Virus record (IMG/VR): IMGVR_UViG_3300026521_000148
Span: 1-64,000 of that record
Origin: a virus
Length of the DNA stretch: 64,000 nt
Direction: 5' to 3' (one strand)
Below, one piece after another: positions 8,319 through 57,042 of the stretch (position 1 is the first letter of the stretch; each line of letters begins with the position of its first letter). Below the pieces are notes generated by a model, which searched no databases, had not been told where the DNA came from, and was given only the letters and a program-made list of their open reading frames with translations. The position numbers and the translations under genes were made by a program.

Positions 8319-9412
8319 TTATTTAAAATACATTTCACAAGCTTTCTTACCTACCACATCTAATGTTGTCGCTAATGTACCCATTAATGTAGGACTAGAC
8401 ACGATACGTGCTAAGTTACCTTTCATACTGAACACAGCATCAACTTCATCTTTTTTATCATCAGTAACTATATCATAATCATACTGTGTTGTTAATGTGG
8501 ATTTAAGTTGTGATGCTATAACACATTTATCACCAGGTATCATACCACCTTGTACATCAATGTAGAATTTGATATGCAGCTTACCTTCCTCTAAGGGAAC
8601 ACCATTGATACTATAACTACTGTTAACTCTACCGTCATATTGTTTACCTGTATCATCGTCTACCATATAAGGTAGGCTAACATCAACTAGTTTTTTAAGT
8701 GATTTACTTAAATCCTTATACTCGCAGTTATGATACACTTTAACCTTAAATACTTTGCCTTTATACTTAGCTTTAGGCGATACCTTTATAAAACTTTGTA
8801 ATAAATCTAATGTTTGTTTATCTAATTTATCATCTTTTATAACGTTACTAACCATAGTGAATAATGCTGTGTTTGGATCAACATCTGTATTCATGTTTAC
8901 TAATTCAGCTATTTCATCTGACTTATCCATAACTAAATCACGTATCTTTATCTGACTTACAACAGTATCATCACATACTTTCTTACTTAACATTAAGGCA
9001 TCTTCATATGTTTCTTGTACTTCCTGCCATGCTATGTTTATAATAGTGTTAGCTCTATATATGACCTTAGTTGGATCAAATATATCGGGCTCGAAGAAAC
9101 TAAAATCATAATACAGTATATCGCCGTATTTAACTTTTTGTTTCTCTTTAACATTAGGTTTAAGTTTATGTATAAACGTAGTACCCGATTCCTCTTTACT
9201 AGTCCAATCTTTAAAACTATAAGTTTTCTTTTTACCATCTTTATATTTAACTGTTATTGTGTTCTTTCCTACTTTTTCAATAACACCATCATCTTTAGCA
9301 TAGCCTACAAATTTCTCATCCATTCTATATGCTACTAAGGATTCATAACCTGTTCTAACCGGAAATGCTTTCGGGTTATAAATCGGTATGATATGTGAGT
9401 TCTGAATATTGA
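8319..9412 (-). CDS. RNA polymerase beta-like subunit, exon 2 (C-terminal part)
   Basis: This is the second exon of the phage multi-subunit RNA polymerase beta homologue. Spliced to exon 1 it reads S-I-L-G-F-N-I-Q-N-S-H-I-I-P, aligning with the bacterial R-A-L-M-G-A-N-M-Q-R-Q-A-V-P. Downstream are the flap-like KVKYGDILYYDFSFFEP, the GDK motif (IPGDKCVIASQLK, counterpart of the GDK-GRHGNKG region that contacts the nascent RNA and NTP) and EVDAVFSMKGNLARI, matching VDIVLNPLGVPSRM. The apparent GTG start at 9452 lies in intron sequence and is probably not used. The joined coding length (3103+1094 nt) is divisible by three, giving 1398 aa, close to bacterial beta. phiKZ instead splits beta over two genes. 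Confidence 0.88.
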
Positions 9413-9989
9413 CGTAAAGTGCGTTGTATTCAGCAAGTGCGCTACTACTCACCAGTTCTCAGTATCTCTACACGAACTTCCCATCCATTACAGATGGATA
9501 CTAGACTATATCTTATCATTCCTAATGTTTTTTATATTAGGAAGACCCTTTCGTTTCGATTTAAGGACTGCCGTCCACCCGCTTGGGCCCTACTCTACTC
9601 GCTTTAACTACATATGTAGCCATGGGGTTATTACACTACCCATGTGATTAACTAGATCTATCACTAGTCTAGTATAGCTTTCGATAGTCGTTGAACACAT
9701 CCCATATACATAAGTACTTAGGGACTTCGCTGCGCTGATTAGAGTACTTAATAAAGGTTTTTACGTAACCTAGTAGGAACATTACCCTGTAGGTGTTACA
9801 GTATGTTTCCATCTGTAAGACGTACTTTATTAATTAGTATATACTCCTCCCCGCAATTAGAAAGGTAATTTATCACTACATTTAAGTAGCGGAGACCATG
9901 TTTAAATAATCTGTGTAATATAGGAAATAATTTTCCTTATACCACAAATCGCGTCCTTTATAATAATATTCATAAAAAGACTATTCAAT
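9413..9989 (-). ncRNA. Group I intron (577 nt) in RNA polymerase beta
   Basis: The intron follows a T (9990) and ends in G (9413), as group I introns require. Core elements on the minus strand are CTAATTGCGGGG (about 9849-9860), GTTCAACGACTATCG (9682-9696) and AAGATATAGTC (9504-9514); GACTA and TAGTC pair as P7. A probable internal guide GGTCTCC lies at 9891-9897. It has no endonuclease gene. Long stretches are near-identical to intron 3 of the beta' gene, and one helix (ATGGG:CCCAT here, ACAGG:CCTGT there) shows compensatory changes. That supports real folding and common origin. Confidence 0.92.
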
Positions 9990-12900
9990 ACCCCAATATT
10001 GATCTCTTAGGGTCATCAAGCATACTGAATGGCGCCAACATAGCTGATGTCGACAATATGTTACTTATTTTTAATTTATCAACACTCGTATCTTTCATAC
10101 CACGTATATTACCCAATAAAGGATTAGCACTCATATATGCAGTTATACCAACATCCCCACTATCTTTACTAGACTCAGATATAACACCTATATCATCAAT
10201 GTGTGTTTCTCTTGTACTAGCATTTAGACTATCTTTACTTCTACCGTTTGTGCCTAGATAAGTACTATCTTCTAACTGTTTTAAAGCTGCTATTGGATTA
10301 ATATCTTCTACTAAACTAGCAGCACTATCTTCGTTAATAGTCCTCCATGTAGCATATGGATCTACTACTAACCTACTCCTACCAAAGAACTCCTCATTCT
10401 TTTTCTTACGTATACTATCTACTAATGTTTTATAAACATACTGAGGAACACGTTCATATCCTTTCATAACGTAACCCTTGATACTATTAGGATGGTTATA
10501 AAAATCATCCAACAACATCTCACTAGCTCTTATAAGTAATTTTATAAAAGTAGTAGGCTCCCCCATAGTTTCTAATGTGGTTTCAGTAACTGGGTCTATA
10601 AAAAGATTTTCATAAACTTCTATATCAGTGGTAGCACTTAAACTTAATCCTATTTCGTTAAAAATAGTTTTAAATAGTTGTTTGTTATTTAATACATCTA
10701 TATCTACCTTTCTAAGTATCTTATCGTTATGTAAGAAACCATCTAGTATCATGTTGTTAAGATCGCTGCTCCTATCTATGACAAGAGTATTGAATTTAAA
10801 TCTAACGATTATAACATTCTCATCTTTAACCCTAACTCTACCGCCCTCTAGTACCTTATAATTAACTTTAAGATACTTAAGCATGCCATATAGACCCATA
10901 TAATAACTAAGTACTAAAGATACAGGAATATATGTAGCAGCTATTTTCATTAACGAATATTCTGGTTTTATAATAGTTGTATCTAAGCCAACTATCCCAT
11001 CTATAGTATTAACCTCTGTATATTTCTTATTTTTATAGATATATATAACATTATTAAAATCCATAACTAATAAACTATCTTTGTATGTACCACATAACAC
11101 ATACTTATCTTTCTCTATATCCTTCACTTCTTCTTTTGTTAAATCCATACGTTTATAGTAACTAAAAGAAAAAACAAAACTATCATATTTAAAAGATTTT
11201 ATATATCTACCATAGGCACTATAATCACTAGGGACTTTAACAGCGACTAGTTTCTGGCTATTATCTACCAAGTTTTTTACTTTACCATCATCAACAAGTT
11301 TTTTAAGTTGTTTCTTTAAAGCAAAACCTCTATCTAATTTTTTAGCAGGAGCTCTATCTATAAATATCTTACCTGTAGCACTAGTTAAACCAACTCTATT
11401 ATATGCTATCTTTTTAATAGGTACATCGGCTCTTTGTTTTCTTAGGATATACTGGTTACCAGATAATGTGTATCTACCCTTTTCATCTATGATAGGTAAC
11501 TTAACTTTAACATCATAACTAGACTTACCCATATCATTAAGCGATACAGTATATTCTTCATATGCTCCTAAGATATCATCGCGTTCTTCTCTCTTTATAT
11601 CTTTAAGTATAAGTCCTGCTTTACTAGTACTACCTATACTAGCTATAAGATCTTTTCTATAAACATTTTTCATATATTGTTTAGTAACAGCACCTAACGT
11701 ATCTTCTGCATCTTCTGGATTACCTGTCTTTGTTATGGGTATCTTTTTATCCTCTTCCTTTATCTTTAATTCTTCTTTAGATATAACTATTAAGTCTTTT
11801 ATCTTTTTACCATCTTTAAAAGGACTAGGCTTATTTAGGCCTTCTTCCAATGTTTCTACTAATTTTTTATATTTAGCAGGAGGTAATAACTTATTATTCT
11901 TTAACTCTTCTAACTGTGCTAAAGTAGTTCTCTTTATATCTGTTTTATCTATATCATCATCAGCCATAGTAGTATATTTGTTTATATAACTAGTAGCCAC
12001 TACCGTATCAGGATCTACAACCTCTTCTTGCACTGTTTCTTCTATATGAACTACATCTTCCTCTTTACTAGATTCTTTCTCTATATGTTTTATTAATTCT
12101 TCATCTGGTATATCCTCTATAACACTATCTTCTTTATCCTTAGTTATACCCATAAGAAGTTTATCAGAAAACTTATTATCATCAATATCTTCTGGAGTAA
12201 AACCAGGCATGAGTAAAACAGTTTTTAACATAACAAAGAAAGATTTCTGTAGTTGATGTCCATCTAGTTTAGTGTTGTTATCTATATTAGATATCTTTAA
12301 GAAACTATAAAGTTTTTCTAAATTAACGAATATACCTTTATCATTTTTAGTTAAAACTATAGTTGTATTTTTAGCTACACCTGTTTCTATAAGTTTATAA
12401 AATACAGATGTTTTACTCACATCATCATCTAGTAACTTAATGAATTCTAATAATAACAATCTACTTGTATCGTAGAATAACTTTATCATTTCTGTAGTTG
12501 GAGTTTCATATTTACTATACTTTTCCAAAATAGGTAAAGCATATAATGTATCAGGTATCTCCATGATAACAAACTGATGTAATGACTCATTACTATTATA
12601 CATTCTACTATTATCTATAAGATCATTAACTAATGTATGTATTGCATTCTGGAACATTTGATAATACTCTAGTATAGTAGAGTTGTACTTGTAAGAAAGA
12701 TGTACTGTATTAAAATTTATTACAGGTATAGTCTTTTTAATGTCATTTGGTTTTTTCATTAAGATATTATGGAACTTCTTTTCTCTAACAAGTTTAATAT
12801 CAAAATGTTTTTTCTTTATATCTTTATAAATAGTAGATTCTTTATGTCCGTTAGTTCTAGCTTTAAAAGGTGGGTTGTTATATTTGTATATATTAAATAC

Positions 12901-13092
12901 AAACTTCTTTTTAGCGAACCTAATGAAATAATGATCATTACTAACGTAATTACTACTGTTAGGGTTGAAAATATACAACATACTATAATATGGAAGCACT
13001 ACCATATTAAGATCTAATATCTTCGGAGTCATGAATGATTGTAAGTTTTTAAGACCAAACTTCTTCTCAAAATCACTGTATTTAGTGGTCAT
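9990..13092 (-). CDS. RNA polymerase beta-like subunit, exon 1 (N-terminal part)
   Basis: The catalytic beta homologue of a phage-encoded multi-subunit RNA polymerase. The N-terminal ~350 residues are divergent, then a long acidic linker (about 330-480). The fork region follows: INPIAALKQLEDSTYLGTNG and GRSKDSLNASTRETHIDDIG align with the bacterial NPLSEITHKRRISALGPGG and VHPTHYGRVCPIETPEG region. The exon ends ML-APFSMLDDPKRSILG, matching SLIPFLEHDDANRALMG. Translation into the intron adds only a Tyr before a stop. The upstream element CTTCTTTGAATTTAAAA resembles that of the second beta' gene, so polymerase subunits may share a promoter type. Whether this is the virion or the non-virion polymerase cannot be told here. 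Confidence 0.9.
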
Positions 13093-16192: not shown

Positions 16193-17812
16193 TTATTCTG
16201 TGAACAAACTCATTATTATTTTGTTAGTTAAAACTTCAGCACTAAATGCTACTTTACCAGATGTTGTTATGTAAAATGATCTACTATTGAGTTTGGATAA
16301 TACTTCTTTACTATTATTTTTTGTCCATACGATATTAAGGCTTACTTTGTCACCGTCAAAGTCACCTCCCATTGCGTCGAGATAAATTTCAGGGACCTCT
16401 AACGCTGATACATATACTTCCCCTATTATAGGATACTCTACAGCAGTTTTATACTCTAAAGTGTCTGGTAACTTAACCTTAACACGTTTAGATTTTATCG
16501 TTGTCTTAAGATACAATAACGTAGGAGTAATACCGCCGTATTGAATAATTGGATATCTAGTAACATATGCTGGATAATCTCTTATGATATCGAATATGGA
16601 TAAATAAACTAACTCACCGTATGTTATAGGCCTAACGTTCTTTACATCCATATGTTCTGACATACTTTCAATACCCTTTAATATGTCTACCTTATCATCA
16701 TCCTCATGAACTAATAATAAGTAATGACCGTCCACTGTTATAGGTGAGTTTAATATCTCATTTTGGCCTAACTTGTTTATAGTTTCTTCTATACCATCAT
16801 CTGTTACCCATCTACTTCTAGTCTTCTCACTTATCTCCACTGGTTTCTTTTTAAGTGTCTTAGGGTCTATAAGCATGGCGTTTGTACTATTAACATCGAA
16901 TATGTCTTGTAAGAATCTAGTTCTTATATTAAACACAGTTATAGGTAATATACCTTTAGCGGCCTGAAATACACCTAATGACGATGTTATGCTATTTGGT
17001 CTATCTTCATCATCTAGATCAGTCATGATACTAGAACTACCTACGATAACATTACGAGTACCATACATAATAGCTCTTTTAGTCCATTTACCCTGTATGA
17101 ATTTAGACTTACCGTCTAATAAGTTTTCTAAATACTCATACACATCTAGAGCAGCTTTTTGTAATCTTTTTCTAACAGCACTTATATATTCGTTATCTTT
17201 ATTCTTAACATCAGATTTAAATACTTTAGCACTACTACTTATTGTTAATACTTTTCTGTATAAACCATTTATCTCGTTTTCTAAAGCTTTACCAGATTCT
17301 AATAATTTGTAATCCCTTATACCAGCTGGTATAACTAAGTACTTATTCATAACTATCTCTTCTGCTTTATACTTTTTTAAGAACTTTATCTTAAAAGCTC
17401 TTTGCGTAGAATCTGTTTCTTTAAACACAATATCGTCATAATGTTCTAGAAAGAAATGTAGGCCGTTCTTACCGTCTAGTCTATCAGACTCTACAAAGTC
17501 TTTTACTTTATGATCCCATATAGCAAATCTAGTTCCGTCTAGTATACCACCGTATAGACTATTTAGAGACACTAACTCTTTAAATACTCTAGGATGTAAT
17601 ATATCTATACCTAAATCTATATAACCGAATGTTGTGTTTCTTTCTTTAGAACCAACTTCTCCAAATATAGTAGTACTGAATAAGCCTTCATGATGGAACT
17701 CTGTACTATTCTGTAAGAATATATCTCTTGTCTTAACTTCTAACATTTGTTTAGTTATCTTATTGTTTAAGATAAGTAATTCTATATTCAACGGTTCGTT
17801 TTCATTATCCAT
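16193..17812 (-). CDS. RNA polymerase beta'-like N-terminal subunit, paralogue 2 (539 aa)
   Basis: The N-terminal half of a beta' homologue. EGLFSTTIFGEV matches the bacterial GLFCARIFGP region; KYLVIPAGIRDY corresponds to the LPPDLRP region; GKWTKRAIMYGTRNVIVGSS corresponds to [20 protein letters not shown]. The catalytic loop is DAMGGDFDGDKVSLN (about residues 487-501), whose three Asp bind Mg2+. The zinc-finger cysteines seen in the other beta' gene are absent. The protein ends soon after the loop, so bridge helix and trigger loop must be encoded by a separate gene, as in phiKZ-like phages. It is uninterrupted, unlike the paralogue at 37316-42378. Two beta'-N genes imply two polymerases (virion and non-virion). 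Confidence 0.88.
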   Translation of the reverse strand: MDNENEPLNIELLILNNKITKQMLEVKTRDIFLQNSTEFHHEGLFSTTIFGEVGSKERNTTFGYIDLGIDILHPRVFKELVSLNSLYGGILDGTRFAIWDHKVKDFVESDRLDGKNGLHFFLEHYDDIVFKETDSTQRAFKIKFLKKYKAEEIVMNKYLVIPAGIRDYKLLESGKALENEINGLYRKVLTISSSAKVFKSDVKNKDNEYISAVRKRLQKAALDVYEYLENLLDGKSKFIQGKWTKRAIMYGTRNVIVGSSSIMTDLDDEDRPNSITSSLGVFQAAKGILPITVFNIRTRFLQDIFDVNSTNAMLIDPKTLKKKPVEISEKTRSRWVTDDGIEETINKLGQNEILNSPITVDGHYLLLVHEDDDKVDILKGIESMSEHMDVKNVRPITYGELVYLSIFDIIRDYPAYVTRYPIIQYGGITPTLLYLKTTIKSKRVKVKLPDTLEYKTAVEYPIIGEVYVSALEVPEIYLDAMGGDFDGDKVSLNIVWTKNNSKEVLSKLNSRSFYITTSGKVAFSAEVLTNKIIMSLFTE

Positions 17813-17825
17813 AGAAACTCCTTTT

Positions 17826-17844
17826 TATTTAATCAAAGAAGTTT
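17826..17844 (-). promoter_or_regulatory. Class II promoter-like motif before beta' paralogue 2
   Basis: AACTTCTTTGATTAAAT on the minus strand. It shares AACTTCTTTGA with the region before the beta gene. Confidence 0.4.
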
Positions 17845-17849
17845 TTATT

Positions 17850-17870
17850 TAGTATAATAATATATAGGTG
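17850..17870 (-). promoter_or_regulatory. Class I promoter-like motif between divergent genes
   Basis: TAGTATAATAATATATAGGTG on the plus strand, a slightly degenerate copy, between the beta' gene (minus) and the tape-measure gene (plus). Confidence 0.5.
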
Positions 17871-17879
17871 GGGTAGGGG

Positions 17880-17899
17880 TTTTTAGTTTGAAATTATAA
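17880..17899 (+). promoter_or_regulatory. Class II promoter-like motif before the tape-measure gene
   Basis: TTTTTAGTTTGAAATTATAA, about 20 nt matching the element before the 492-aa gene (6961-6982), here on the plus strand and followed by an AAAGGA ribosome-binding site. Confidence 0.55.
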
Positions 17900-17912
17900 A
17901 TATAAAGGATGC

Positions 17913-20900
17913 ATGATGGCAGATGAATTTGAAGAATTCGATGATATAGACGCCCTGATGGCTGAAGGTGATGATTTTGACATGGGTGATTCATCCTCTT
18001 CAGATGGCCCAGTCTCCACTGTAGACCAAATAAGTGAAGGAGTTGTTGACTCTTTAAATATAGACGCAACAGCTGAAAAGATAAAGAATTCTATGCTAGA
18101 CTCATTGCCTGGTAATGTAGGTGATGGCGTTTATAAAGCAGAAAGTGCTGTAGATGATTTAACAGAAGCATTTGATAAAGAGATGAAGCCACTTAAAAAG
18201 GCTACATCAGCTACATTAGGTGGTATAGCCGATGTACTTCCTGATAGTATGGCCGATAGTGTTAAATCATTAAAGTCATGGATAGATGGTGATGATGAAT
18301 CTACTGGTAGTAATAATGAACCAACTGAAGATGAGAAGATAGCATCAGAAGTGGATCAACTTTTAGCTAAATCAGCTATCGAAGAGCAAGTTAATAGTAA
18401 ACTAGCATCCGTACAGCAGAAGAAAGACTCTGAATTATTAAGTATGATAGCTGAGGCTACTACTAAGACAGTAGTATACAAGTCAGAATATGACGCTAAC
18501 TATTATAAAAGAAGTTTAGAATTACAATTAAAACAAGTCTTAACAACAGTTAAACTTTATGATTTATTAAAACTAGATAGTGAGAATAGATCTAAACAAC
18601 TAGACGCTATTGTTAAGAATACAGCATTACCTGATTTTGCTAAATCTAGAACATCTGATATAGCTAAACAAATGATAATGGGTACGGCTAAGGATGTTGC
18701 TACTAACGCTTTCCTTAAGAATGATAGTATAAGTAATTTAACTAAGTTTGGTAAAGAGAAGATGTCTGGTGCATTAGGTGCCGCTACTGAAATGGTTGGT
18801 CTTGGTTCAGATTTATCAGAAATACTAACTATGCAGATGGAGCAAGGAGCTACGTTAACACAAGTTCTATCAAGTATGGCTACAGATATGGTTGTCGATA
18901 AAGCTGTATCTAAGGGAACTGATTACGCTCTTAAGAAATTATTCGAAACACAAGGCGGTGTTAAAGTACTCGGTGATTACGATACGTTTATATCAGACCC
19001 ACAAAAAGCTTTAGAAAAAGCAAAACAAGCACATATAGAAAATGGTGGTAGTGAAGAGGATCTTAAATATAAAGCTTTAGAATTAGGTAAAGAAGCTATC
19101 GGAGAACAGTATAAGACTAAAAGCGTTAATATATCCAATATAACGGATATGAGAGATGCTGCTCAGATAGATAATAAGTTTGTTAAAACAGTAGATACAG
19201 TTATACCTACCTATTTATCTAAGATGCTTAATGAGTTAACAACTATAAGAAAAATAGCTGGTAACTTACAGTTAAGTAATGACCAACAAACAAATAAAGT
19301 ATCGAGTACTAATAAAGGTAATAGTAGCTTAGGGAGCAATACTTTAGGTTTACAATCTAGTAGACCAAGTGACAATGTTCCTAAAACAGAAGATGAATTA
19401 GTATACGATTTTGAAAAAGGTAGATTTGTAACAAAGAAAGATGTTAAGAAAGTTATAAATGAAAAAATAGATAAACACGTAGCCAAACTAGCTGATGATA
19501 TCATAAGTAGCAATATAGATGAACTTATTGTTCCAGACCATTTATCTATAAAAGAAAGAACATCCATAGCCTTAGCTATTAGTGATTATATCATGTCTGG
19601 TAAATCCATAGCACCAGCATATATGCACGAGGATGGTTTTCTTAACTATTTTAAAAATGATAAAGAGTTAAAGAAGAAAGTTAGTAAGGGTTTATCGAGA
19701 CTAGAGTCTCCTGAAAATAAACTTATTTATGATCAAAGAGCTAAGTTAACACAATCTTTAGAAAGATTAAAGAAATCTAGTATCTCTAATTTTTCCGATA
19801 TAGCTAAATCTGCAGATTTAAATAATAGTGTAGATACATTATTAGAAATGGGTATCGTTGATGAAGATAACCCAAATGTTATATCTACTAAGAATGTTAA
19901 AGATACGTATAGTAAACGTATACGTAAACAAACAACAGGTAAAATAAAAGAAAGTAAATTATCACTCAGTGAACAACAATTAGTAGACTCCATAAAAGAG
20001 AAAGAAAATAAATTAAAAGAAAAAGCTAGAACAAGAGATGATAAGTTAAAAAGAACTAAGACTAGAACTCTTAGAAATTACAAAGATAATGAAGATGCTG
20101 AAAAGGCATTTAATAAAGGTATAGATAGTTACGGCAAAACAGAAGATGAATTAGATAAAGTACTTAATGAACTAATAAAAGATAAACCTATAGAAGAGGC
20201 TAACCTTATAGAAGAGGCGTTCAGTCTTGGACTTGGGCAAGGGTTAAGAGAAGCAGAGGAGTTAAAACGTTATAAAGAAGAGCGCGCCAATCTTGCTAAG
20301 AAATATGACAATAAAGTTAATAGAGCTACCAAGAAAATGGATGAAGATGAGAAGTCTTCTTTTATAGATAGACTAAGAGCTGAAACATTATTAGAGGAGA
20401 TAGGTTCATTTAGTAAAGGTGGTAGTACAGGTAAGGGTAAAGATGATGAAGTAGCTGGTATCATACATAGAAACGAATACGCTCTTAATAGAAAAGATAT
20501 ACAAGATCTAGCTAACTTTATATCTGAAGGTAACGTTAAGAAGATCGTTAAGTTCTCTACCAGTATATTAGAAGATATTAATAAAGAAGATAATGTGTTC
20601 GATATTAAAGATATCGATAAAGATATAGTAACATCTTTTATAAGTAAACATATACCAGATAAGGTTAAGGATACTTATACAGATTTAAAAAATAACACAA
20701 AAGAATTTATGGAAGGTGATGTTGTAAATGACTTCTACAATAACCATAAAGAAACATTCGATAGTGTTAAACAATTTAAAGATGATAAAGTATCTACTAT
20801 AAAGACTAGTTATACGAAAACAAAAGATAAGATAAGTAAATATATACCAGAAACAAAAGTTATAGAAGATGCTATAAGTAATATAACAAAAACACTATCT

Positions 20901-37288: not shown

Positions 37289-37316
37289 ATGTATGGTGGG
37301 ACATCCCACCATACAT
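37289..37316 (-). terminator. Hairpin terminator after RNA polymerase beta'
   Basis: ATGTATGGTGGG / CCCACCATACAT perfect 12-bp stem with a 4-nt loop, followed on the minus strand by CTAATCTTTTTTATTTTT. Confidence 0.85.
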
Positions 37317-37531
37317 CACATTTCTAATATTTGTTTATACACAGGACAATCTGGATCATCCTCTTCTACTTTACTAAGATAATTCATTAATGTTAATGAA
37401 CTTGTTTTAGGTAAGTTAAGGTTACCGCTTATCTTGTAAATATCTAGAGCAGGTAGATTGTTGTGTGGTGCGAACACCTCTGCTAACTCTACTAGTCTAT
37501 TACTAAGTAATAAGGCAAAGTTTAATTCCGT
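37316..37531 (-). CDS. RNA polymerase beta'-N paralogue 1, exon 4 (C-terminal end)
   Basis: The last exon of the mosaic beta' gene. It starts T-E-L-N-F and continues FALLLSNRLVELAEVFAPHN, which aligns with the region just after the bacterial NADFDGD loop and parallels DKVSLN in paralogue 2. It contributes 71 residues and ends KQILEM. The apparent TTG start at 37543 lies in intron 3 sequence that is shared with the beta intron, so this is not an independent gene. The spliced protein of about 480 aa ends before bridge helix and trigger loop, which must be on another subunit. Confidence 0.85.
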   Translation of the reverse strand, partial: TELNFALLLSNRLVELAEVFAPHNNLPALDIYKISGNLNLPKTSSLTLMNYLSKVEEDDPDCPVYKQILEM

Positions 37532-38156
37532 CGCTTTCAGCAAGTGCGCTACTACTCACCAGTTCTCAGTATCTCTACATGAACTTCCCATCCATTACAG
37601 ATGGATACAAGACTATATCTTATTCCTTATATAACTACACGAGTTATATAGGATCACCCCATTTCGTCTTTAAGGGGACAATACCCCACCACTTGGCGCT
37701 ACTCTACTTTCTTTAACTACATATGTAGCCACAGGGTTACTACACTACCTGTGTGATTAACTAGATCTATCACTAGTCTAGTATAGATTTCGATAGTCGT
37801 TGAACTCACACACTCTAGTCATACTAGATCACTCTCGTGGTTTAAGGTGCTTCGCTGCGTCGATCGGAGTCTAATCAATAGGTTTTTACCATGCTAGTAT
37901 TTCTATTACCGACACTAGTTACATAGTCTGTTTCCAGCTATGGGTGGTACTATTAATATAACAACTCCTCCCCGCAATTAGAGGTGTATCAACTACCTTA
38001 CGGTAGAGCTAATCATTACTGATTAGGGAGACCAATTAAATTATTTTTATAGTATAACCATTCCGTTCCGAGTTTTTTTACCAATGTTTTTCTATCGATA
38101 TTAAGGAACTTTGCAGCTTTTCTTAAACTAATCTCGTAAATACGGACTATTTTTTA
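37532..38156 (-). ncRNA. Group I intron 3 of the beta' gene (625 nt)
   Basis: It starts after GAT of F-D-G-D (38157) and ends in G (37532). The core on the minus strand has CTAATTGCGGGGAGG (about 37968-37982), GTTCAACGACTATCG (about 37791-37805) and AAGATATAGTC (about 37613-37623). Its guide GTCTCC (in 38027-38033) pairs perfectly, with the terminal U-G wobble, to the 5' exon end GGAGAT. About 85 nt at its 3' end are almost identical to the beta intron. It contains a degenerate reading frame (see 38016-38147). Confidence 0.9.
38016..38147 (-). pseudogene. Remnant of an intron endonuclease (C-terminal helix-turn-helix)
   Basis: A 43-codon frame without start codon encodes ISLRKAAKFLNIDRKTLVKK and a W-L-Y-Y-K-N-N ending. 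This is the helix-turn-helix type tail found at the C-terminus of homing endonucleases. It lies 5' of the ribozyme core, the same place as the intact endonuclease gene of intron 2, and its last codons overlap the guide sequence. It is probably what is left of a lost endonuclease. Confidence 0.6.
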
Positions 38157-38168
38157 ATCTCCATCAAA
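38157..38168 (-). CDS. RNA polymerase beta'-N paralogue 1, exon 3: 12-nt exon coding F-D-G-D
   Basis: TTTGATGGAGAT lies exactly between two group I introns. It is preceded by G (intron 2 end, 38169) after a P9-type hairpin and ends in T. Its last six bases GGAGAT pair with the guide of intron 3. Upstream exon 2 ends A-Y-N-M-D and downstream exon 4 begins T-E-L-N-F, so joining gives N-M-D-F-D-G-D-T-E-L-N-F, the universal Mg-binding loop of multi-subunit polymerases. Without this exon the protein would lack two of three catalytic Asp, which strongly argues that it is real. Confidence 0.85.
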
Positions 38169-39483
38169 CCCACTTCTCTCGAAGTGTGGACCATATCATG
38201 ATCACTTACATACCCATAGAGTAATGTAGGACCCTCTCCGTTTCGCCATATTAAAATACAGCTACTCTACTTTCTTTAATATCTTTATAAGATACCAACC
38301 AGTTATTACGTCATGGTTGTGATTAACTAAGTCTGTTACCAGCTTAGTATAGATTTCGATGGCCTCTGAACACATACCATACCTCTATGAAGGTTAGGCA
38401 CTTCGTTGCGTCGATTAAGATCTATTTAACAAGTTTTTACTATGCCCTTAGTTCCACTATTACGGCTAGGGTATCATAGTCTGTTTCCAGCTATGAGTAG
38501 TATTGCTAACATAACGATCTCTTCCCGCAGTTAGGAGAGTTTGCTTATATAGTTACCTATATAAGGGACTTCTTATCTTAGTATTTAAAATAACAATTTT
38601 ATTCCTAGAGTCGATATAGTATCTCTAACTAGGGTGTTGCCGGGTACATTATATAATTTACCTATATAAACGAGTGAATTGGTCGCCACCATTTCACCAT
38701 CTTTAATAAACCAATATTTACAAATATTAGTCAACTTTTTCTTTAACACTTCCTCTATATTGTCTATATCTAAATAATTCAACACAGCGAAAGCGTAACC
38801 ATTCTCTTTAGCATATCTCTTTTTTACTATGTCACTAGCCTGTCGTTTCTTAAAACCATGTTCACCACCCCAGATTTTTACTGGAGTATAATGTTGGCCA
38901 CTATGAAACTCTAATAACATATTTACTATAGGTATATAAAAATCATACCTATATTGTTTACCATTTATAGATACCCTGAACTCACGTTTATATTCTATAC
39001 CATACTTATCTAATATACTACTTATAGCTAATTCACCTGAGCTACCACCACACTTAGGACACCCATGGCCACGTAATAATAACTGTGGTGTTGTATCGAA
39101 CTCACCATGTATCGGACAACCTATGGTTATGTTAGTTCTATTGTTTTTATAGTTAACTTTACTATAATCAAGTTTATTACCAAACTTCTCCCTAGCTTTC
39201 TTTATGAACCTTTCTGTATTCATTTTACTGTTACCTGAACATTCGCTACACCCGAAGCCGTTTAAGTGGTCTCCTGGTCTTTGCTGGTAGTCACCATGTA
39301 TCTTACATGTTATGGTTATTTTTGTGCTTCTGTTTTTGTATACTGCGTTATCGTAAGTATAACGTCCGTTATGGACTTTAGTGGCTCTACCGATGAACTC
39401 CTCGGTAGTTAACTTTTTACCCATTCTATACCCCTGTTTGTTTGTTTTATGCGTTGTTTTTTATTTATCTACTAAGAAATTTT
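38169..39483 (-). ncRNA. Group I intron 2 of the beta' gene (1315 nt) with endonuclease gene
   Basis: It starts after GGAT (39484) between the first Asp and Phe of D-F-D-G-D, and ends in G (38169). The endonuclease gene sits 5' of the core. Minus-strand core elements: CTAACTGCGGGAAG, GTTCAGAGGCCATCG and CATGATATGGTC. P7 pairs GGCCA with UGGUC, where the related introns have GACUA with UAGUC, a covariation that supports the fold. A P2-type hairpin (CTTATATAG / CTATATAAG) and a guide GTCC (within 38565-38569, pairing with GGAT) are visible. Confidence 0.9.
38585..39424 (-). CDS. Intron-encoded homing endonuclease, DUF723 + PD-(D/E)XK/Vsr-like (279 aa)
   Basis: Spreads intron 2 by cutting intronless polymerase genes. 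Two zinc-ribbon-like repeats (CKIHGDYQQRPGDHLNGFGC and CPIHGEFDTTPQLLLRGHGC, each ending CxxC) are followed by a nuclease domain with the pattern YRYDFYIPIVNMLLEFHSGQ and HY, matching the usual RFDF...LIEYDGEQH motif of Vsr-like homing enzymes; the second Asp of EYDG is His here. The C-terminal 40 residues form a DNA-binding helix-turn-helix-like tail (IGKLYNVPGNTLVRDTISTL). It lies wholly inside intron 2, on the same strand as the host gene. Confidence 0.8.
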   Translation of the reverse strand: MGKKLTTEEFIGRATKVHNGRYTYDNAVYKNRSTKITITCKIHGDYQQRPGDHLNGFGCSECSGNSKMNTERFIKKAREKFGNKLDYSKVNYKNNRTNITIGCPIHGEFDTTPQLLLRGHGCPKCGGSSGELAISSILDKYGIEYKREFRVSINGKQYRYDFYIPIVNMLLEFHSGQHYTPVKIWGGEHGFKKRQASDIVKKRYAKENGYAFAVLNYLDIDNIEEVLKKKLTNICKYWFIKDGEMVATNSLVYIGKLYNVPGNTLVRDTISTLGIKLLF

Positions 39484-39588
39484 ATCCATATTATAAGCGC
39501 TAGCCACGAGAACGGATATAGAGACCGTTGTATCGTTAGCATCATGCTTAAATTTTGTTATATATAGTTTTTGTATGCTGCCTTGGAG
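39484..39588 (-). CDS. RNA polymerase beta'-N paralogue 1, exon 2
   Basis: A 35-codon exon hidden between two introns. It ends VSISVLVASAYNMD, aligning with bacterial IQLHPLVCAAYNAD, and begins LQGSIQKLYIT, matching the L-G-I-Q-A-F segment after NRAPTLHR. The 3' end at GGAT is well supported (U at the exon end, guide pairing, frame). The 5' end is less certain: a junction CAT|CTC (G-F-H-L-Q-G-S-I-Q) fits frame, terminal G and a CCAU/GUGG guide pairing, but junctions a few bases away (39580-39582) cannot be excluded. Confidence 0.8.
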
Positions 39589-41268
39589 CAACGAAGGCTA
39601 GTTGCATACTATATTGTAACACATAAGTATTACAGTACGCAACACAGACTATATCATATATATATAAATCTTATAGGTCTGCTTAACCTATTGTTAATCG
39701 ATCGTCTCGACACCATATTTTTCCTCTAACGCCCTATTATTAAGAGACGCCATTACGCCAATAGTTAACCCTAACTCTTTAGCTAGCTCTACTCGACTAT
39801 AGATATATCTATTATTAAGTTTGTACAACTTACCATCTATAGATTTACCATGCTTACTAAGTATTAATTGTTTATTAGTATAAATATCCTTTAAAGGATA
39901 ATCATCACATAATCTCGTAATGACATAACCACTAAATATACCAGCTCTATTAAACTTCTTAGCAGCAGTTTCTACTTTAGCGCTTATAGTTCTAGGTTTA
40001 ACATTTAGTTTATTAGCAAAGTCTGTGACAGCCTGATATTCAGTAATGGTACCGTTAACTGGATCATAGACTCTGATACCATTACATATCTTTTTGATGG
40101 GTTTAGACCATATAGCTGTTCTATCGCGCTGTGCTCTCTCCTTATCTTCTAGATCTAAAGTTATCTTAGATGTATCTATAGGTTTATACGAGAACGTGTA
40201 TCCGCCTATGTATTTAGTGTCTTGTTTTAATAGATCCTTACTAAACGATGTATGAACTATACCTGTGGCGAATGATGCGTGGTATAAGTTATTATATTCT
40301 TTTACCTCGCCTGCCATATGGTCTAGTACATATACGAGTCTATCTGAATCACCAGTAAAATGTACTTTAGCAGTTATCTTATATCTACCGTTTATAGGAT
40401 ATTTACTAGATCTAGGTATATAAGCTATGAGGGTATCATTACTTATCTTCAGGTATTTACTAAGCTCTTCAAGACTGATGAAGTTCTTTTTAGTACCTTC
40501 TTTTATATCCTCTAAGATACATTTGAAGTTATCTTTGCGAAGGCCCTCTTTGAACGCATGTTTAACATTCTCCGAAGCAGATACCGCTTCTAAGTTAGAT
40601 ATATGGTTATTGTATTTATTACCATCTTTATGATTGATCTGGTATTTATGGCCATCCCGTAGTTTGATATCTTCTGGTTTACCGAAGGCGTTAATAACCA
40701 TTACATGTATGCTGCGATTGAGTTTACCGCCATCATCTAGAGGCAGGTTAATCCTCTCATAGCCTCTGTTAGATTTAAAGGTCTTTCTTATTTTACCTGT
40801 TAATGTATTAAGTACTTTACCAGTATTGGATATAAGATATCCTTTACAATTCTCTATCTCCCTCCATTCCTCTTTCATTTTTTGTTTCCTTGTTGTTTTT
40901 AAGATTTATATATATCGTGGCGTTTCGATTTAAGGATCGCCTGATCCACTATAGTATAACTATAGCCCTACTCTACTGGATTTAATACCATATGGTACCA
41001 GAGAATTTTATATCTCTGTCACTCCTCTTAAGATCACTCTTAAGACGCATCGTTCGATAGTCGTTGAGCACATCCCATATACATAAGTACTTAGGGACTT
41101 CGCTGCGTCGATCGCTCCAGTGTATATCTTTTCACTATGCCTACTTATCCTTAATTACGGTGTAGGTGTCATACTACATTTCTGTGTATGAGTAGTAATA
41201 TACGACTTATGGAGTTTCCCGCGATTAGCCACGTTCTTTAGACAGAGTTATTAAGCAGCTAACTCTGA
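39589..41268 (-). ncRNA. Group I intron 1 of the beta' gene (about 1680 nt) with HNH endonuclease gene
   Basis: Minus-strand core elements: CTAATCGCGGGAA (about 41216-41228), GCTCAACGACTATCG and ATATGATATAGTC (about 39649-39661). The endonuclease gene lies in the loop of a perfect 16-bp stem (ATATATATAAATCTTA with its complement), which is P8. A P9-type hairpin (GTTGCGTACT / AGTATGCAAC) follows. The segment with CCCATATACATAAGTACTTA is shared with the beta intron. Boundaries are good to within about ten bases at each end. Confidence 0.85.
39694..40878 (-). CDS. Intron-encoded HNH homing endonuclease with NUMOD4 (394 aa)
   Basis: A homing enzyme for intron 1. The N-terminal NUMOD4 motif is WREIENCKGYLISNTGKVLN (residues 5-24). 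The HNH core lies about 68-112 (ends NHKDGNKYNNHISNLE). The long C-terminal region has several helix-turn-helix-like DNA-binding segments (ITEYQAVTDFANKLNVKPRT, SRVELAKELGLTIGVM). It is placed in the P8 loop, so ribozyme folding is undisturbed. Same strand as the polymerase gene. Confidence 0.88.
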   Translation of the reverse strand: MKEEWREIENCKGYLISNTGKVLNTLTGKIRKTFKSNRGYERINLPLDDGGKLNRSIHVMVINAFGKPEDIKLRDGHKYQINHKDGNKYNNHISNLEAVSASENVKHAFKEGLRKDNFKCILEDIKEGTKKNFISLEELSKYLKISNDTLIAYIPRSSKYPINGRYKITAKVHFTGDSDRLVYVLDHMAGEVKEYNNLYHASFATGIVHTSFSKDLLKQDTKYIGGYTFSYKPIDTSKITLDLEDKERAQRDRTAIWSKPIKKICNGIRVYDPVNGTITEYQAVTDFANKLNVKPRTISAKVETAAKKFNRAGIFSGYVITRLCDDYPLKDIYTNKQLILSKHGKSIDGKLYKLNNRYIYSRVELAKELGLTIGVMASLNNRALEEKYGVETID

Positions 41269-42378
41269 ATGGAACCCTATTTGATTCCTGTTACCCAATA
41301 CAGCGATACCTTTACCTTTAGCTTCACGTATTAGTTCATCACCTATATCTGCTATCTCTTGGTCGAACATAAGAGTAGCGTTAAACACCTTAGCAGATGC
41401 TTGTTTATAAGTATAACCTCTTCTTTTAAGTTTGTTAAGAACATGCGGTCTAAATGTTGTTGTTAGTATGGACCATGGGACATGTATAGTGTCATAATCA
41501 TATTCCCTACCTAATGAAGAAACAACACATCTAAATGTAAAATGAGCTCTTGTACCATAAATATTCTTACGGATAAGACCGCCTTTTCTAGACACGAGAT
41601 CTTTAACATAGTTAGTAAATAACTCTGCTGATTTACTTATGATCTTAGCTGTGTTAGTTTCTAACCGTTTATTTGTCATAGTGATATCGTTAGACGTATT
41701 GATAGCTAATAATGCTAAGTCTATGATATCAGATAGTAAAACAGATGTGTAGTTACCCTTATTAGTTGTTTCCATAACAAACAACTTTTTGTTAATAAGA
41801 GGTATGTGGTCTGAAAAGATTTTATCATGATCTTCTCTATATAACTTAAGTAATGCATCTAGCTTAACTTGTTTAGTTAATGTTTTATAATATGCATTAT
41901 TCTTAAGAAATATGATGATCTTCTCTAAATTGTTAACAACATTAAGATAACTTCTACCGCCTATGATCTCTTTTAAAGATAATAGAACTATCGGTATAGA
42001 TGGTGGGTTATAAGTTGTGTCTGATAACCATCTTAAACCATCTACTTTAGTATTAATAGTTCTCGATAAATCAGCCCAAAACTTAGGGTTAATAAATACC
42101 AACTCTTTTCTAAACTTCTCTACCCACAATATAGGCTCCACTGAGTCGAATACGTTAACAACAGTTGTGTCGCATCTAGGACATGTTCTACCCAACAGGT
42201 AGGCTTTCTTATAATAACCGCACTCACACTGAGGTATCATAGAGATCTCATCGTCATACGTTGTATAGATAAGATCTTTGATATTATCAGTACTGAGTGA
42301 AATATCATTAAGTAATAGTTTCCTATTAACCCTTTGATATAAGTCATCTAGTTGTATATAACTTTGTACAATAGCCAT
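41269..42378 (-). CDS. RNA polymerase beta'-N paralogue 1, exon 1
   Basis: The N-terminal part (370 codons) of a beta' homologue. A zinc finger is present (CECGYYKKAYLLGRTCPRC, about residues 50-68), unlike in paralogue 2. RKGGLIRKNIYGTRAHFTFR (about 275-294) matches [40 protein letters not shown] matches [20 protein letters not shown], and the exon ends AVLGNRNQIGFH, matching PVLLNRAPTLH. The extra S-E-L-A-A and stop are read-through into intron 1. Spliced with exons 2-4 it gives about 480 aa ending after the DFDGD loop. A class I motif lies upstream at 42414-42437. Confidence 0.88.
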
Positions 42379-53487: not shown

Positions 53488-56400
53488 ATGAGTCAAATTT
53501 TAATAAAGAAACGTAGCGGCGTAATGGAACCACTTGACGATGAGAAATATCACCAGCATGTAGAGGAAGCAGTTAAAGGTATAAAGGGTGTATCAGCATC
53601 GCAAATAGAGATGGACGCAGCTATGAATATAGTCGACGGTATGCGCTCTACAGAGATACAACACGCATTGATCATGTCGGCTAGTAATAAGATACCAACT
53701 GACCCAAGATACAACAAACCGGCAGCTAGGCTACTTAACCAAGATTTAAGAAAAAGAGTTTATGGTGATTATAAACCAGATGATTTTGTTAAACATATCG
53801 TTGGTAATATCGAAAATGGTGTATATGATAAATCCTATTTAGAAGAGAACTACACTGATGATGAGTTTAAAGAGTTATTGTCTATCATAGATTATGATAA
53901 AGATGATAAGTTCACATATTCTGGTTTAAAGAAAAATACTGATGGGTATTTGATAAAGCGTTATGGAGAGATAAAAGAAACTCCTCAAGAATCATACATC
54001 ATGATAGCTATATTCGCATTTGCTAAGTATAAAGAAAAATATGATGTAGAAACAAGAGCATATTGGGTTAAAGAGTTATATACAGCATTAAGTGATTTTG
54101 AGATAAGTCTACCTACACCTATCATGGGTAAACTAAGAACAACTTTTAGAAACTTTATAAGTTGTGTACTTATTCCATTAGGAGATACGAAAAGAAGTAT
54201 AGCTAACGCATTCTCTACTATATTAACTGTTGTTGCATCTGGTGCCGGTATTGGGTTAGGCGGGTACGATATCCGTGGCCAAGGTGCTGATATAGATGAT
54301 GGTAGAATGCAACATGTTGGTACATTCCCTATTATTAAAGCCAGTGAAAAAACTACTAAAGCTTTTGTACAACCAGATAGAGACGGTAGCACTACTGTAT
54401 TCTATGCTTTTTACAATGTAGAGATCTTGAAGATGATGACATGGGGTAATGCTAAAGGTACTGATGATACAAGAGCTAGAGATCTAGACCATGCCATTAA
54501 CTTTAATAAGTTATTCTTCGAGAGATTAAGAGATGGTAAAGATATAACATTATTTTTTACAAATGATGTACCTATGCTTAAAACATGTCTTGGTGATTTT
54601 AAAACTTTTAAAAGATTTTACGAACAATATGAAAATACTGTTCCTGTAGAAAGACAAACTAAGGTACCTGCAGAGGTTATATTCGATAATTTTATAGATG
54701 AACGCGTGTTACAGTCTAGAGAGTATGCCGCTTTCATGGATGCGGTGCAAATGCATGGTGGTTATGATGTACCTATTAATCAGTTAAACCTTTGCGTTGT
54801 TGGTAGTACAGAAATATTAACAAAAGAGTATGGTAACATAGAAATAGGTAAATTAGTTAATGATATGGGAGTTACTAGTACGGAATGCTGGAATGGTGAG
54901 GAGTGGTCACAAACAGAATTATTTAAAACAAGTGACGGTCAAAAAGTTTGGACTATCATACTCAGTAACGGTGTTAAGCTGGAGGTAACGCCATACCATA
55001 AATGGTATGTTAAGAAAGATCCTAATAAGTACGATAGTCCGATAATCGAAAAAAGAACACACGAGTTACTAATAGGTGATAAACTAGAAAAATTCCTATT
55101 ACCAGATGATGTCAAATTTGGCGATAAACTGATATTAAATCCCTATACATCTGGTTTCTTCACATCTGATGGAACCGATTTAGGGCAAAATAAACGCATC
55201 CGTCTGTATAACGAAAAAACAAATTTATTAGATAAGTTATTTAAGAAGATTAGGTATAAACGTTTTTTTAAAGCTAACGAAAATAATAACTCAGTTATTG
55301 AGGTATATTATTCGTCTAACTATTTAGAGGATAAATTTTTTGTACCAACATCAGAATATAGAAAATCTGATGTATTAAAATGGTTAGCTGGTGTGTTGGA
55401 TGGCGATGGAACAGTACTTAACAATAACGGGGCTATGTCTATACAACTAGCGTCTGTTAATGAAGAGTACCTTACTAAGATACGCTTACTTTTAGTAAAT
55501 TTCGGTATCGATGCGAAAATCTCGGTTTTTAATAACGAGCGCGTTGTTCCTCTACCAACGAATAAGGGCGATGGTAGTGCGAAATTATATAAATGTAAAA
55601 AGGCATGGCGCATTACTATACCTGGTAATGATGTTAATACGTTAATAAAACACGGCATAAAACTACATAGATTAGATATAAGACACCATGACTATAATAG
55701 AGATGCTAGGAGTTTCGTGACAGTTAAAGCTATAATCGACGATGGTGGCATTAGTGATACCTATTGCGGTACAGAACCTAAAAGAAATAAATTATTGTTC
55801 AATGGCGTTTTAACAGGTAACTGTAACGAGATCGCACAGCCGACATTTCCACTTGAGTCTTTGTATAATATTAAAAGAAATATTAGATTTTATACAGAAG
55901 AAGATATGAAACACTATTATGAATTAAGACATCAGTTATTCTCGTTACAATCTTACGAAAATAAGTTTTCTTACACTATAAGAAAACAGATGACTAGACA
56001 CTTTGAGTTTGTTAATAGTGATCTCGGAGCTACTGTAGATGAAACTTTACCTTATGATTATTTCGATCTATTAGGTCTACCTGTTATGGATGAAACAGGT
56101 GTTTGTATTATTGCTGGTATAAATATAGGACATGTTAAAGTGGAAAGGCTCCCTATAGTTTCTGAATTGTTAGTTAGGGTTCTTGATGAGCTTATTGACT
56201 ATAACAAATATGAATCTTCATACATGGAGAAAGCTGCTAAGATGCGTAGGGGCATAGGTATAGGTTTTAGTGATGTATTTCACTTATTAGCTATTAATGA
56301 AGTTAAGTATAATACTAAAGATGGTATGGAGCTGATTAATGAAAGATGTGAGTTAGCTACCTACCATATGATAAAAACATCTATACAACTAGCAGAAGAT

Positions 56401-57042
56401 TTTGGTCCTTGTTTATTAAGTTACGATAATAAGTATAGTAAAGGTATATTCCCTATAGATACGTATGAAAAGAATGTTGATGAGTTGGTGTCTAGATCAC
56501 CATTAGGGTTAGATTGGGATGGTCTTAAAGTTAGAGCTAGAAAATCCGGTACTAGACATAGCACACTATTCGCTAATGCGCCATATGGTAACTCTGCGAT
56601 ACCTTCAGGTAGTACATCTGGTATAGAGCCACCTAGAAGTCTTATCTATAAGAAACATGGTTTATATAATGTTGTTCCTGATTACGAAACACACAAAGAT
56701 TTCTACACTACAGCATGGAGTGATGAATTTAACAATGCTGATTACTTTAAGTTTACAGCTGTTGTTCAGAAGTGGTGGGATCAAGCATTAAGTCTTAATG
56801 AGTATAGAAACTTATTAAAATACGTAGATGGTAAGATACCTAAATCAGAGTTAATGAGAGATATACTTATAGCTATGCATTATGGACATAAATCTATGTA
56901 CTACCTTAATGTTAAGTCTAAAGAAAAAGATAAAGACGGAGATGGTGATGATAGTCTGTATAAAGCAGATATAAAAGAAGAGATTATTATAGAAGATGAA
57001 GATGATAGCATAAGCTGTGAAAGTGGTAGCTGTTCTATTTAA
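53488..57042 (+). CDS. nrdA: Class Ia ribonucleotide reductase large subunit NrdA with intein (1184 aa)
   Basis: Reduces ribonucleotides; works with NrdB upstream. The N-terminal ATP-cone is at about residues 1-90 (ILIKKRSGVMEPLDDEKYHQ). The catalytic barrel is interrupted at L-N-L | C-N-E-I by an intein of 343 aa (see 54793-55821). After splicing, NLCNEIAQPTFPLE restores the thiyl-radical Cys. Other parts: GVCIIAGINIGHV, SAIPSGSTSGIEPPRS (active-site loop) and a C-terminal CESGSC redox pair. The mature size is about 841 aa. Preceded by AAGGAGA. Confidence 0.93.
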   Translation: MSQILIKKRSGVMEPLDDEKYHQHVEEAVKGIKGVSASQIEMDAAMNIVDGMRSTEIQHALIMSASNKIPTDPRYNKPAARLLNQDLRKRVYGDYKPDDFVKHIVGNIENGVYDKSYLEENYTDDEFKELLSIIDYDKDDKFTYSGLKKNTDGYLIKRYGEIKETPQESYIMIAIFAFAKYKEKYDVETRAYWVKELYTALSDFEISLPTPIMGKLRTTFRNFISCVLIPLGDTKRSIANAFSTILTVVASGAGIGLGGYDIRGQGADIDDGRMQHVGTFPIIKASEKTTKAFVQPDRDGSTTVFYAFYNVEILKMMTWGNAKGTDDTRARDLDHAINFNKLFFERLRDGKDITLFFTNDVPMLKTCLGDFKTFKRFYEQYENTVPVERQTKVPAEVIFDNFIDERVLQSREYAAFMDAVQMHGGYDVPINQLNLCVVGSTEILTKEYGNIEIGKLVNDMGVTSTECWNGEEWSQTELFKTSDGQKVWTIILSNGVKLEVTPYHKWYVKKDPNKYDSPIIEKRTHELLIGDKLEKFLLPDDVKFGDKLILNPYTSGFFTSDGTDLGQNKRIRLYNEKTNLLDKLFKKIRYKRFFKANENNNSVIEVYYSSNYLEDKFFVPTSEYRKSDVLKWLAGVLDGDGTVLNNNGAMSIQLASVNEEYLTKIRLLLVNFGIDAKISVFNNERVVPLPTNKGDGSAKLYKCKKAWRITIPGNDVNTLIKHGIKLHRLDIRHHDYNRDARSFVTVKAIIDDGGISDTYCGTEPKRNKLLFNGVLTGNCNEIAQPTFPLESLYNIKRNIRFYTEEDMKHYYELRHQLFSLQSYENKFSYTIRKQMTRHFEFVNSDLGATVDETLPYDYFDLLGLPVMDETGVCIIAGINIGHVKVERLPIVSELLVRVLDELIDYNKYESSYMEKAAKMRRGIGIGFSDVFHLLAINEVKYNTKDGMELINERCELATYHMIKTSIQLAEDFGPCLLSYDNKYSKGIFPIDTYEKNVDELVSRSPLGLDWDGLKVRARKSGTRHSTLFANAPYGNSAIPSGSTSGIEPPRSLIYKKHGLYNVVPDYETHKDFYTTAWSDEFNNADYFKFTAVVQKWWDQALSLNEYRNLLKYVDGKIPKSELMRDILIAMHYGHKSMYYLNVKSKEKDKDGDGDDSLYKADIKEEIIIEDEDDSISCESGSCSI
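54793..55821 (+). mobile_element. Intein with LAGLIDADG endonuclease inside NrdA (343 aa)
   Basis: A protein-splicing element at NrdA residues 436-778. It starts with Cys (CVVGSTEILTKEYGN, block A), has the block B motif VTPYHKW with its His, a LAGLIDADG helix WLAGVLDGDGTV, and ends FNGVLTGN before Cys+1. The penultimate residue is Gly rather than the usual His, a variant known in other inteins. The insertion is directly in front of the active-site radical Cys. Only one clear LAGLIDADG helix is visible; a second, weaker one may lie near 55620-55680. Confidence 0.9.

Follow-up and report, generated by a model that had tools for sequence, protein, structure and literature searches.

In a 64,000-nucleotide stretch of viral DNA (positions 1 to 64,000 of the IMG/VR virus record IMGVR_UViG_3300026521_000148; hereafter the window), the minus strand at 42378-37316 carries a gene whose product, judged by profile and PDB matches, is the N-terminal β′ subunit of a non-virion RNA polymerase (nvRNAP) of the phiKZ gp55 type. 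Three group I introns very probably interrupt this gene and cut its catalytic motif twice, isolating the residues FDGD on an exon of 12 nucleotides (nt). The DNA comes from a jumbo phage that has both sets of RNA polymerase (RNAP), and its record of 80,350 bases, of which the window is a portion, covers only part of the genome. Gene identity, exon boundaries, intron cores, covariation of the P1 pairing and recurrence of the arrangement were all taken from sequence. A preliminary description of the window had proposed the gene, its strand, four exons and three group I introns, with a 12-nt exon TTTGATGGAGAT at 38168-38157 joined in frame as NMD/FDGD (a slash between residues marks a splice junction or insertion site throughout); all of this stands, supported by the profile phrog_2987 and by end-to-end matches to the Rfam model RF00028. 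Its proposal that group I introns cut the catalytic motif twice is now backed by the intron cores, the profile, the uninterrupted relative L124, P1 covariation and independent phages.

Exons and splice junctions

Exon 1 (41284-42378, minus strand) comprises 365 codons, MAIVQSY...GNRN, and encodes the N-terminal part of β′ with its zinc-binding cysteines, matching positions 3-380 of phrog_2987. In a six-frame search with this profile, the match was stop-free and ended exactly at 41284 (profile position 380). Compared with L124 (IMGVR_UViG_3300026512_000005), the closest relative found, 213/365 residues of exon 1 are identical (58%); in L124 the gene is uninterrupted, and there was no group I match anywhere in its 116-kilobase (kb) record. 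Exon 2 (39484-39597, minus strand; 38 codons, PSLLQGSIQ...AYNMD) takes up the profile at 380 and follows it to 418, ending exactly at 39484, and aligns without a gap to L124, 201phi2-1 and Noxifer. The resulting junction NRN/PSLLQGSIQ compares with RNPSLLQGS in L011 and RNPTLQRGS in 201phi2-1. Of the three junctions first proposed, the join of 39484 to 38168 was kept, and the other two required shifts of 3-15 nt. The first had been placed at 41269 and 39588 (NRNQIGFH/LQGSIQ), with errors of 15 and 9 nt on its two sides, and was moved to 41284 and 39597 on the basis of the profile end and the gap-free alignment; QIGFH was rejected as the end of exon 1, being intron sequence that runs 15 nt past the profile end.

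Exon 3 (38157-38168, minus strand) is the microexon encoding F-D-G-D, and it is the sole FDGD 12-mer between exons 2 and 4. Within the window, two FDGD-coding 12-mers were found on both strands together, against 0.08 expected from shuffles; the second, at 16349-16360, lies inside an intact virion-RNAP β′ gene. Exon 4 (37316-37528, minus strand) contributes 70 codons, ELNFALLL...QILEM, followed by a stop, and 32/70 residues are identical to L124 in a gap-free alignment. Its start is most likely at 37528 (FDGD/ELNF) and not 3 nt away at 37531 (FDGD/TELNF), as first described, because the family reads FDGD-(Q or E)-LN, because a P10 pairing of 7 base pairs (bp) becomes available, and because the intron then ends like those of its relatives. 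For the P10, the guide strand UUUAAUU of intron 3 is complementary to AAUUAAA, a stretch set one nucleotide into the 3′ exon. The intron end follows the pattern ..CUGAA-nnnn-ACG seen in related introns: CUGAAAGCGACG resembles CUGAACAAUACG in phiKZ and CUGAACACAACG in PhiPizzaParty, as well as CUGAAUACAACG, the end of a β-gene intron in the same window.

With the corrected junctions, the spliced product is 477 amino acids long (..NRN/PSLLQGS..NMD/FDGD/ELNF..) and aligns gap-free through all three junctions with L124 and with the intact genes of 201phi2-1 and Noxifer. It matched phiKZ gp55 in PDB entry 7ogp with E 7.5e-58, and a profile search using the earlier junctions matched residues 3-462 of 478 in phrog_2987 with E 1.1e-98. 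This match over the whole spliced product, together with the DFDGD motif, places it in the family of N-terminal nvRNAP β′ halves, and it would be expected to function as a polymerase subunit. In a Pfam search of the source record, Rpb1 domain 2 was not matched, presumably because the domain is split across exons. Relative to L124, every exon is stop-free and in frame, and third codon positions change most in each; the microexon shows 0/8 changes at codon positions 1-2 and 3/4 at position 3.

The preliminary description had held that a second intact gene for this subunit would count against a split one. A second FDGD-bearing β′ gene does exist (16193-17812, minus strand, with an uninterrupted DFDGD), but it is a separate gene for the virion-RNAP β′ half, a paralogue matching phrog_2986 with E 2.7e-165; a six-frame profile search found no second copy of phrog_2987 in the 80,350-base record, itself a genome fragment.

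Intron cores and guide pairings

All three introns lie on the minus strand. Intron 1 (39598-41283; 1686 nt) starts CAAATAGG, ends ..AACTAG and scores 29.6 bits against RF00028; intron 2 (38169-39483; 1315 nt), inserted at D/F within the DFDGD box, scores 42.1 bits (E 1.7e-9); and intron 3 (37529-38156; 628 nt), which follows FDGD, scores 38.4 bits (E 2.7e-8). The covariance model, a check suggested in the preliminary description, thus matched each intron, and in short-stretch scans it covered them end to end (model 1-253) with E 8e-6 to 2e-9, so membership in RF00028 is assigned by E-value and length and not by the curated cut-off. A whole-record Rfam search plus the short-stretch scans detected all three, whereas group I matches were absent from a whole-window scan at gathering and from one of a 5-kb stretch at E 5, probably owing to speed filters. 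Two other introns of the record, one in the virion RNAP β gene and one outside the window, scored above gathering.

At all three junctions the 5′ exon ends in a U opposite a guide G and the last intron base is G, as had been described. In intron 1, the corrected join of 41284 to 39597 creates the P1 pairing of GGAAU with GUUCC (41288-41284 with 41275-41271), and P10 joins CCU to AGG. In intron 2, GGAU pairs with the guide GUCC at 38569-38566, and P1 is extended across a loop holding an open reading frame (ORF) by CUUAGU (39476-39471) with ACUAAG (38582-38577). In intron 3, the guide GUCUCC at 38032-38027 pairs fully with GGAGAU, again as first described, and the P10 strand UUUAAUU lies at 38040-38034. 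Across twelve introns, P4 and P7 were paired in 95.8% of cells, 6 of them changed on both sides, a result equalled by 0/500 shuffles; intron 2 retains P7 through a compensatory change from U-A to C-G plus one G-U. At the insertion site after FDGD, P1 was 100% paired in six distinct phage sequences, the rows of this comparison being chosen by hand, and the guide changes along with the Gly codon at its synonymous third position (GGA with UCC, GGU with ACC, GGU with GCC, GGG with CCC), giving A-U, U-A, G-C and U-G pairs there. These features suggest that introns 1-3 would splice themselves out with guanosine.

Intron 1 contains a homing endonuclease ORF of 394 amino acids (39694-40878, minus strand) between the two P7 strands, with the Pfam order NUMOD4-HNH-NUMOD1; NUMOD4, HNH_3 and NUMOD1 were all above cut-off, and the ORF resembles that of the phiKZ intron. 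The P1 loop of intron 2 holds a putative homing endonuclease ORF of 279 amino acids (38585-39424, minus strand), which matches the HNH endonuclease profile phrog_559 with E 6e-53 as well as the homing endonuclease profile phrog_9084 and DUF723, and has zinc ribbons and a DFYIP..LLEFHSGQH region. Intron 3 has in its P1 loop an open stretch of 43 codons (38025-38153, minus strand; ..ISLRKAAKFLNIDRKTLVKKLG..) that appears to be an endonuclease remnant, since by eye it resembles the C-terminus of the complete HNH ORF that L010 carries at this position. Introns 2 and 3 share 68% identity across 290 nt, but a recent tandem duplication is unsupported, intron 3 being nearer to same-site introns or to the virion RNAP β-gene intron in a small, weak tree of intron cores where the start of intron 2 was set at a wrong anchor.

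How twelve nucleotides could serve two introns

Nucleotides 1-3 of the microexon (UUU) could form P10 with GAA on the 5′ side of the intron 2 guide, and nucleotides 7-12 (GGAGAU) are the P1 partner of intron 3. The two segments do not overlap, so 12 nt are enough, which eases the earlier worry about so short a 5′ exon. Introns 2 and 3 may nevertheless not both be docked on the microexon at once.

The three introns would have invaded the gene at conserved positions around the catalytic box, in each case probably via homing, and the pre-mRNA would shed all of them through guanosine-initiated self-splicing, with the U of the P1 U-G pair as each 5′ splice site and G as each last intron base. Intron 2 would link NMD to FDGD, its P10 formed on the UUU of exon 3, and intron 3 would then take GGAGAU of exon 3 as the 5′ exon strand of its P1 and link FDGD to ELNF. 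Intron 2 is expected to splice before intron 3 because it is transcribed first; this order, like the efficiency of splicing, is predicted from the pairings. A minor in-frame product without the microexon, and so without the Mg-binding box, is likely.

It is conceivable, though we think it unlikely, that such skipping is the main or a regulated outcome, with introns 2 and 3 jointly dropping FDGD, so that a subunit without catalytic activity would tune late transcription. Loss of 12 nt preserves the frame, introns 2 and 3 are alike to the extent given above, and their 5′ exons end similarly in GGAU and GGAGAU. Related tandem group I introns omit exons of 23 nt in phage Twort and 34 nt in Coxiella, a stepwise route via a distal 5′ site has been demonstrated in constructs (PMC10136302), and skipping gives a major product in SIOphi (PMC11878797). 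The guides differ, however (GUCC and GUCUCC), which favours the correct partner, and a dead catalytic subunit as the chief product would be lethal if the gene is the sole copy.

Recurrence across phages

Scans for the arrangement took in IMG/VR and GenBank phages. In L229, a distant contig, a 12-nt exon TTCGATGGTGAT lies between introns scoring 86 and 90.9 bits; these share 83% identity across 184 nt, and their tandem duplication is plausible. In G004 (220,598 bases), three consecutive introns leave two short exons: one of 6 nt, GCGGAT, which encodes AD (L380, reverse complement 1766-1771) and has a group I intron on either side, and one of 12 nt, TTTGATGGTGAT. G005 has a 12-nt FDGD exon in its virion-RNAP β′ gene, the upstream exon end being approximate. 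A 15-nt exon encoding DFDGD occurs in L202 and L203, which are 99.99% identical. The cultured phage vB_Pae3705-KEN49 (PP456877; hereafter KEN49) carries three introns in the same gene as the window, at RN/P, N/A and FDGD/Q, and its internal exon consists of the catalytic box only. It differs from the window in that this exon has 18 nt (ADFDGD), its introns cluster with those of Pseudomonas phages and not with the window's, and the arrangement is unannotated. KEN49 was the only phage record spanning its own double-intron stretch in a search that detects near-identical DNA only.

L008 and the Pseudomonas phages fnug, KEN49, PhiPizzaParty and LC likewise have an intron at the RN/P site of intron 1, and L008-L012, PA7 and PA7 relatives have one at the site of intron 3. 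About 15 other IMG/VR β′ genes have an intron at the D/F site of intron 2, as found by a pattern scan for a P7 strand with a run of FDGD codons downstream (GATATRGTC required 10-120 nt before FDGD). Within the box, phiKZ uses N/A, L202 A/D and G005 FDG/D; the N/A, A/D, D/F, FDG/D and D/Q sites thus amount to at least five insertion points inside 18 nt. In the small tree, of low power, intron cores cluster mainly by phage lineage rather than by site, which suggests repeated local spread.

Several of these loci showed irregularities of their own. In L009 (3299), L011 (9103) and L012 (7759), the frame puts the exon start after the FDGD-site intron behind an A and not a G, reflecting either one extra codon or a shifted splice point. 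In L010 (7230-7260) the exon before this intron ends in GGTGAC, which would put C in place of the usual U at the 5′ splice site. G005, a 209-kb phage, also has an nvRNAP β′ intron within the box at FDG/D (L381, G005 16300-18700, at 1340-2090), and more group I introns cluster at 186-193 kb, within its virion RNAP β′ gene and close by.

Weighing the evidence

Several points weigh against a catalytic box isolated by three group I introns. The support is drawn from DNA sequence; the cores of introns 1-3 score below the Rfam gathering cut-off of 50 bits; P1 of intron 2 has just 4 bp; the TELNF start of exon 4 remains as a less likely alternative; and with a contig that covers only 80 kb of the genome, a second, intact copy may lie outside it. 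This last point would accommodate a decaying gene, in which the introns are stranded, the microexon is poorly included and the real subunit is encoded in the unsequenced part. The sub-threshold cores and the shrunken endonuclease of intron 3 would fit such decay. We nevertheless hold it to be highly unlikely, given that all exons are stop-free and true to frame with changes mostly in third positions (in the microexon only there), that a compensatory change preserves P7 of intron 2, and that multi-intron forms persist in several independent phages, one of them cultured. That an assembler fused an intron 2 allele with an intron 3 allele is scarcely credible, even for a metagenome-derived record whose relatives carry single introns at one or other site: the 12-nt exon is shorter than assembly words, so reads must span the end of intron 2, the exon and the start of intron 3, and the same cis arrangement occurs in independent contigs of other samples and, with 18 nt, in cultured KEN49.

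Further introns and an intein in the record

The virion RNAP β gene of the window is split by a group I intron of its own (9453-9984, minus strand; 50.6 bits), flanked by ORFs at 9985-13092 and 8319-9452 that both match phrog_3148. At its 3′ end it is almost the same as intron 3, and over 55 nt it shares 98% identity with intron 1, a likeness that suggests recent exchange between introns. Outside the window, the same record holds another strong group I intron (G000:66838-67125, L001; 75.3 bits). At 53488-57042, a ribonucleotide reductase large subunit contains an intein (TIGR01445 above cut-off, residues 436-507), with a LAGLIDADG-like motif, WLAGVLDGDG, recognised by eye.

Relation to known systems

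It is already known that phage introns interrupt RNAP genes. In phiKZ, the same subunit is encoded by genes 55 and 56.1 around the HNH gene 56, with an endonuclease-bearing intron adjoining the DFDGD box, and PHIKZ055 and PHIKZ056.1 form one chain in PDB 7ogp, i.e., the spliced product. phiKZ differs in having a single intron at N/ADFDGD, 6 nt upstream of the window's intron 2, and no microexon. PhiPA3 gp210, a jumbo-phage virion RNAP β gene, has a group I intron with an HNH endonuclease (PMC11620839), but only one intron and in a different subunit. Short exons between tandem group I introns, in both included and skipped forms, have been reported for orf142 of phage Twort and the 23S rRNA of Coxiella (PMC10136302), which differ in exon length (23 and 34 nt) and gene. 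In placozoan mitochondrial cox1, a 1-nt microexon between two group IB introns provides a conserved, indispensable residue (PMC5436844), so that 12 nt is not the shortest exon flanked by group I introns in all life. No described phage microexon of this kind was found in the open-licence literature, and as far as that literature was searched, it is new that a protein gene of a phage has a 12-nt exon for the catalytic box alone, that such an exon recurs in several lineages, and that in G004 a 6-nt exon lies beside it.

We tentatively consider a broader idea, rather doubtful at present, in which the catalytic box of phage RNA polymerases serves as a landing zone on which introns converge, stacking at the five sites listed above down to exons of 6-18 nt, and in which the stack is maintained either as a splicing gate on late transcription or because each newly arrived intron destroys the homing site of its neighbour. 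What the split gene itself indicates is that phage group I introns can shrink an exon to four codons (two in one relative) with the gene still reconstructable, which offers a natural test of the minimal exon for a ribozyme, namely a P10 partner plus a P1 partner. It also accounts for a catalytic motif sometimes missing from annotated jumbo-phage polymerases, in which standard annotation overlooks the active site. Introns have repeatedly targeted the metal-binding box in both of the phage RNA polymerases, and whether polymerase introns serve regulation or are mere burden can now be tested directly, with KEN49 as a cultured relative.

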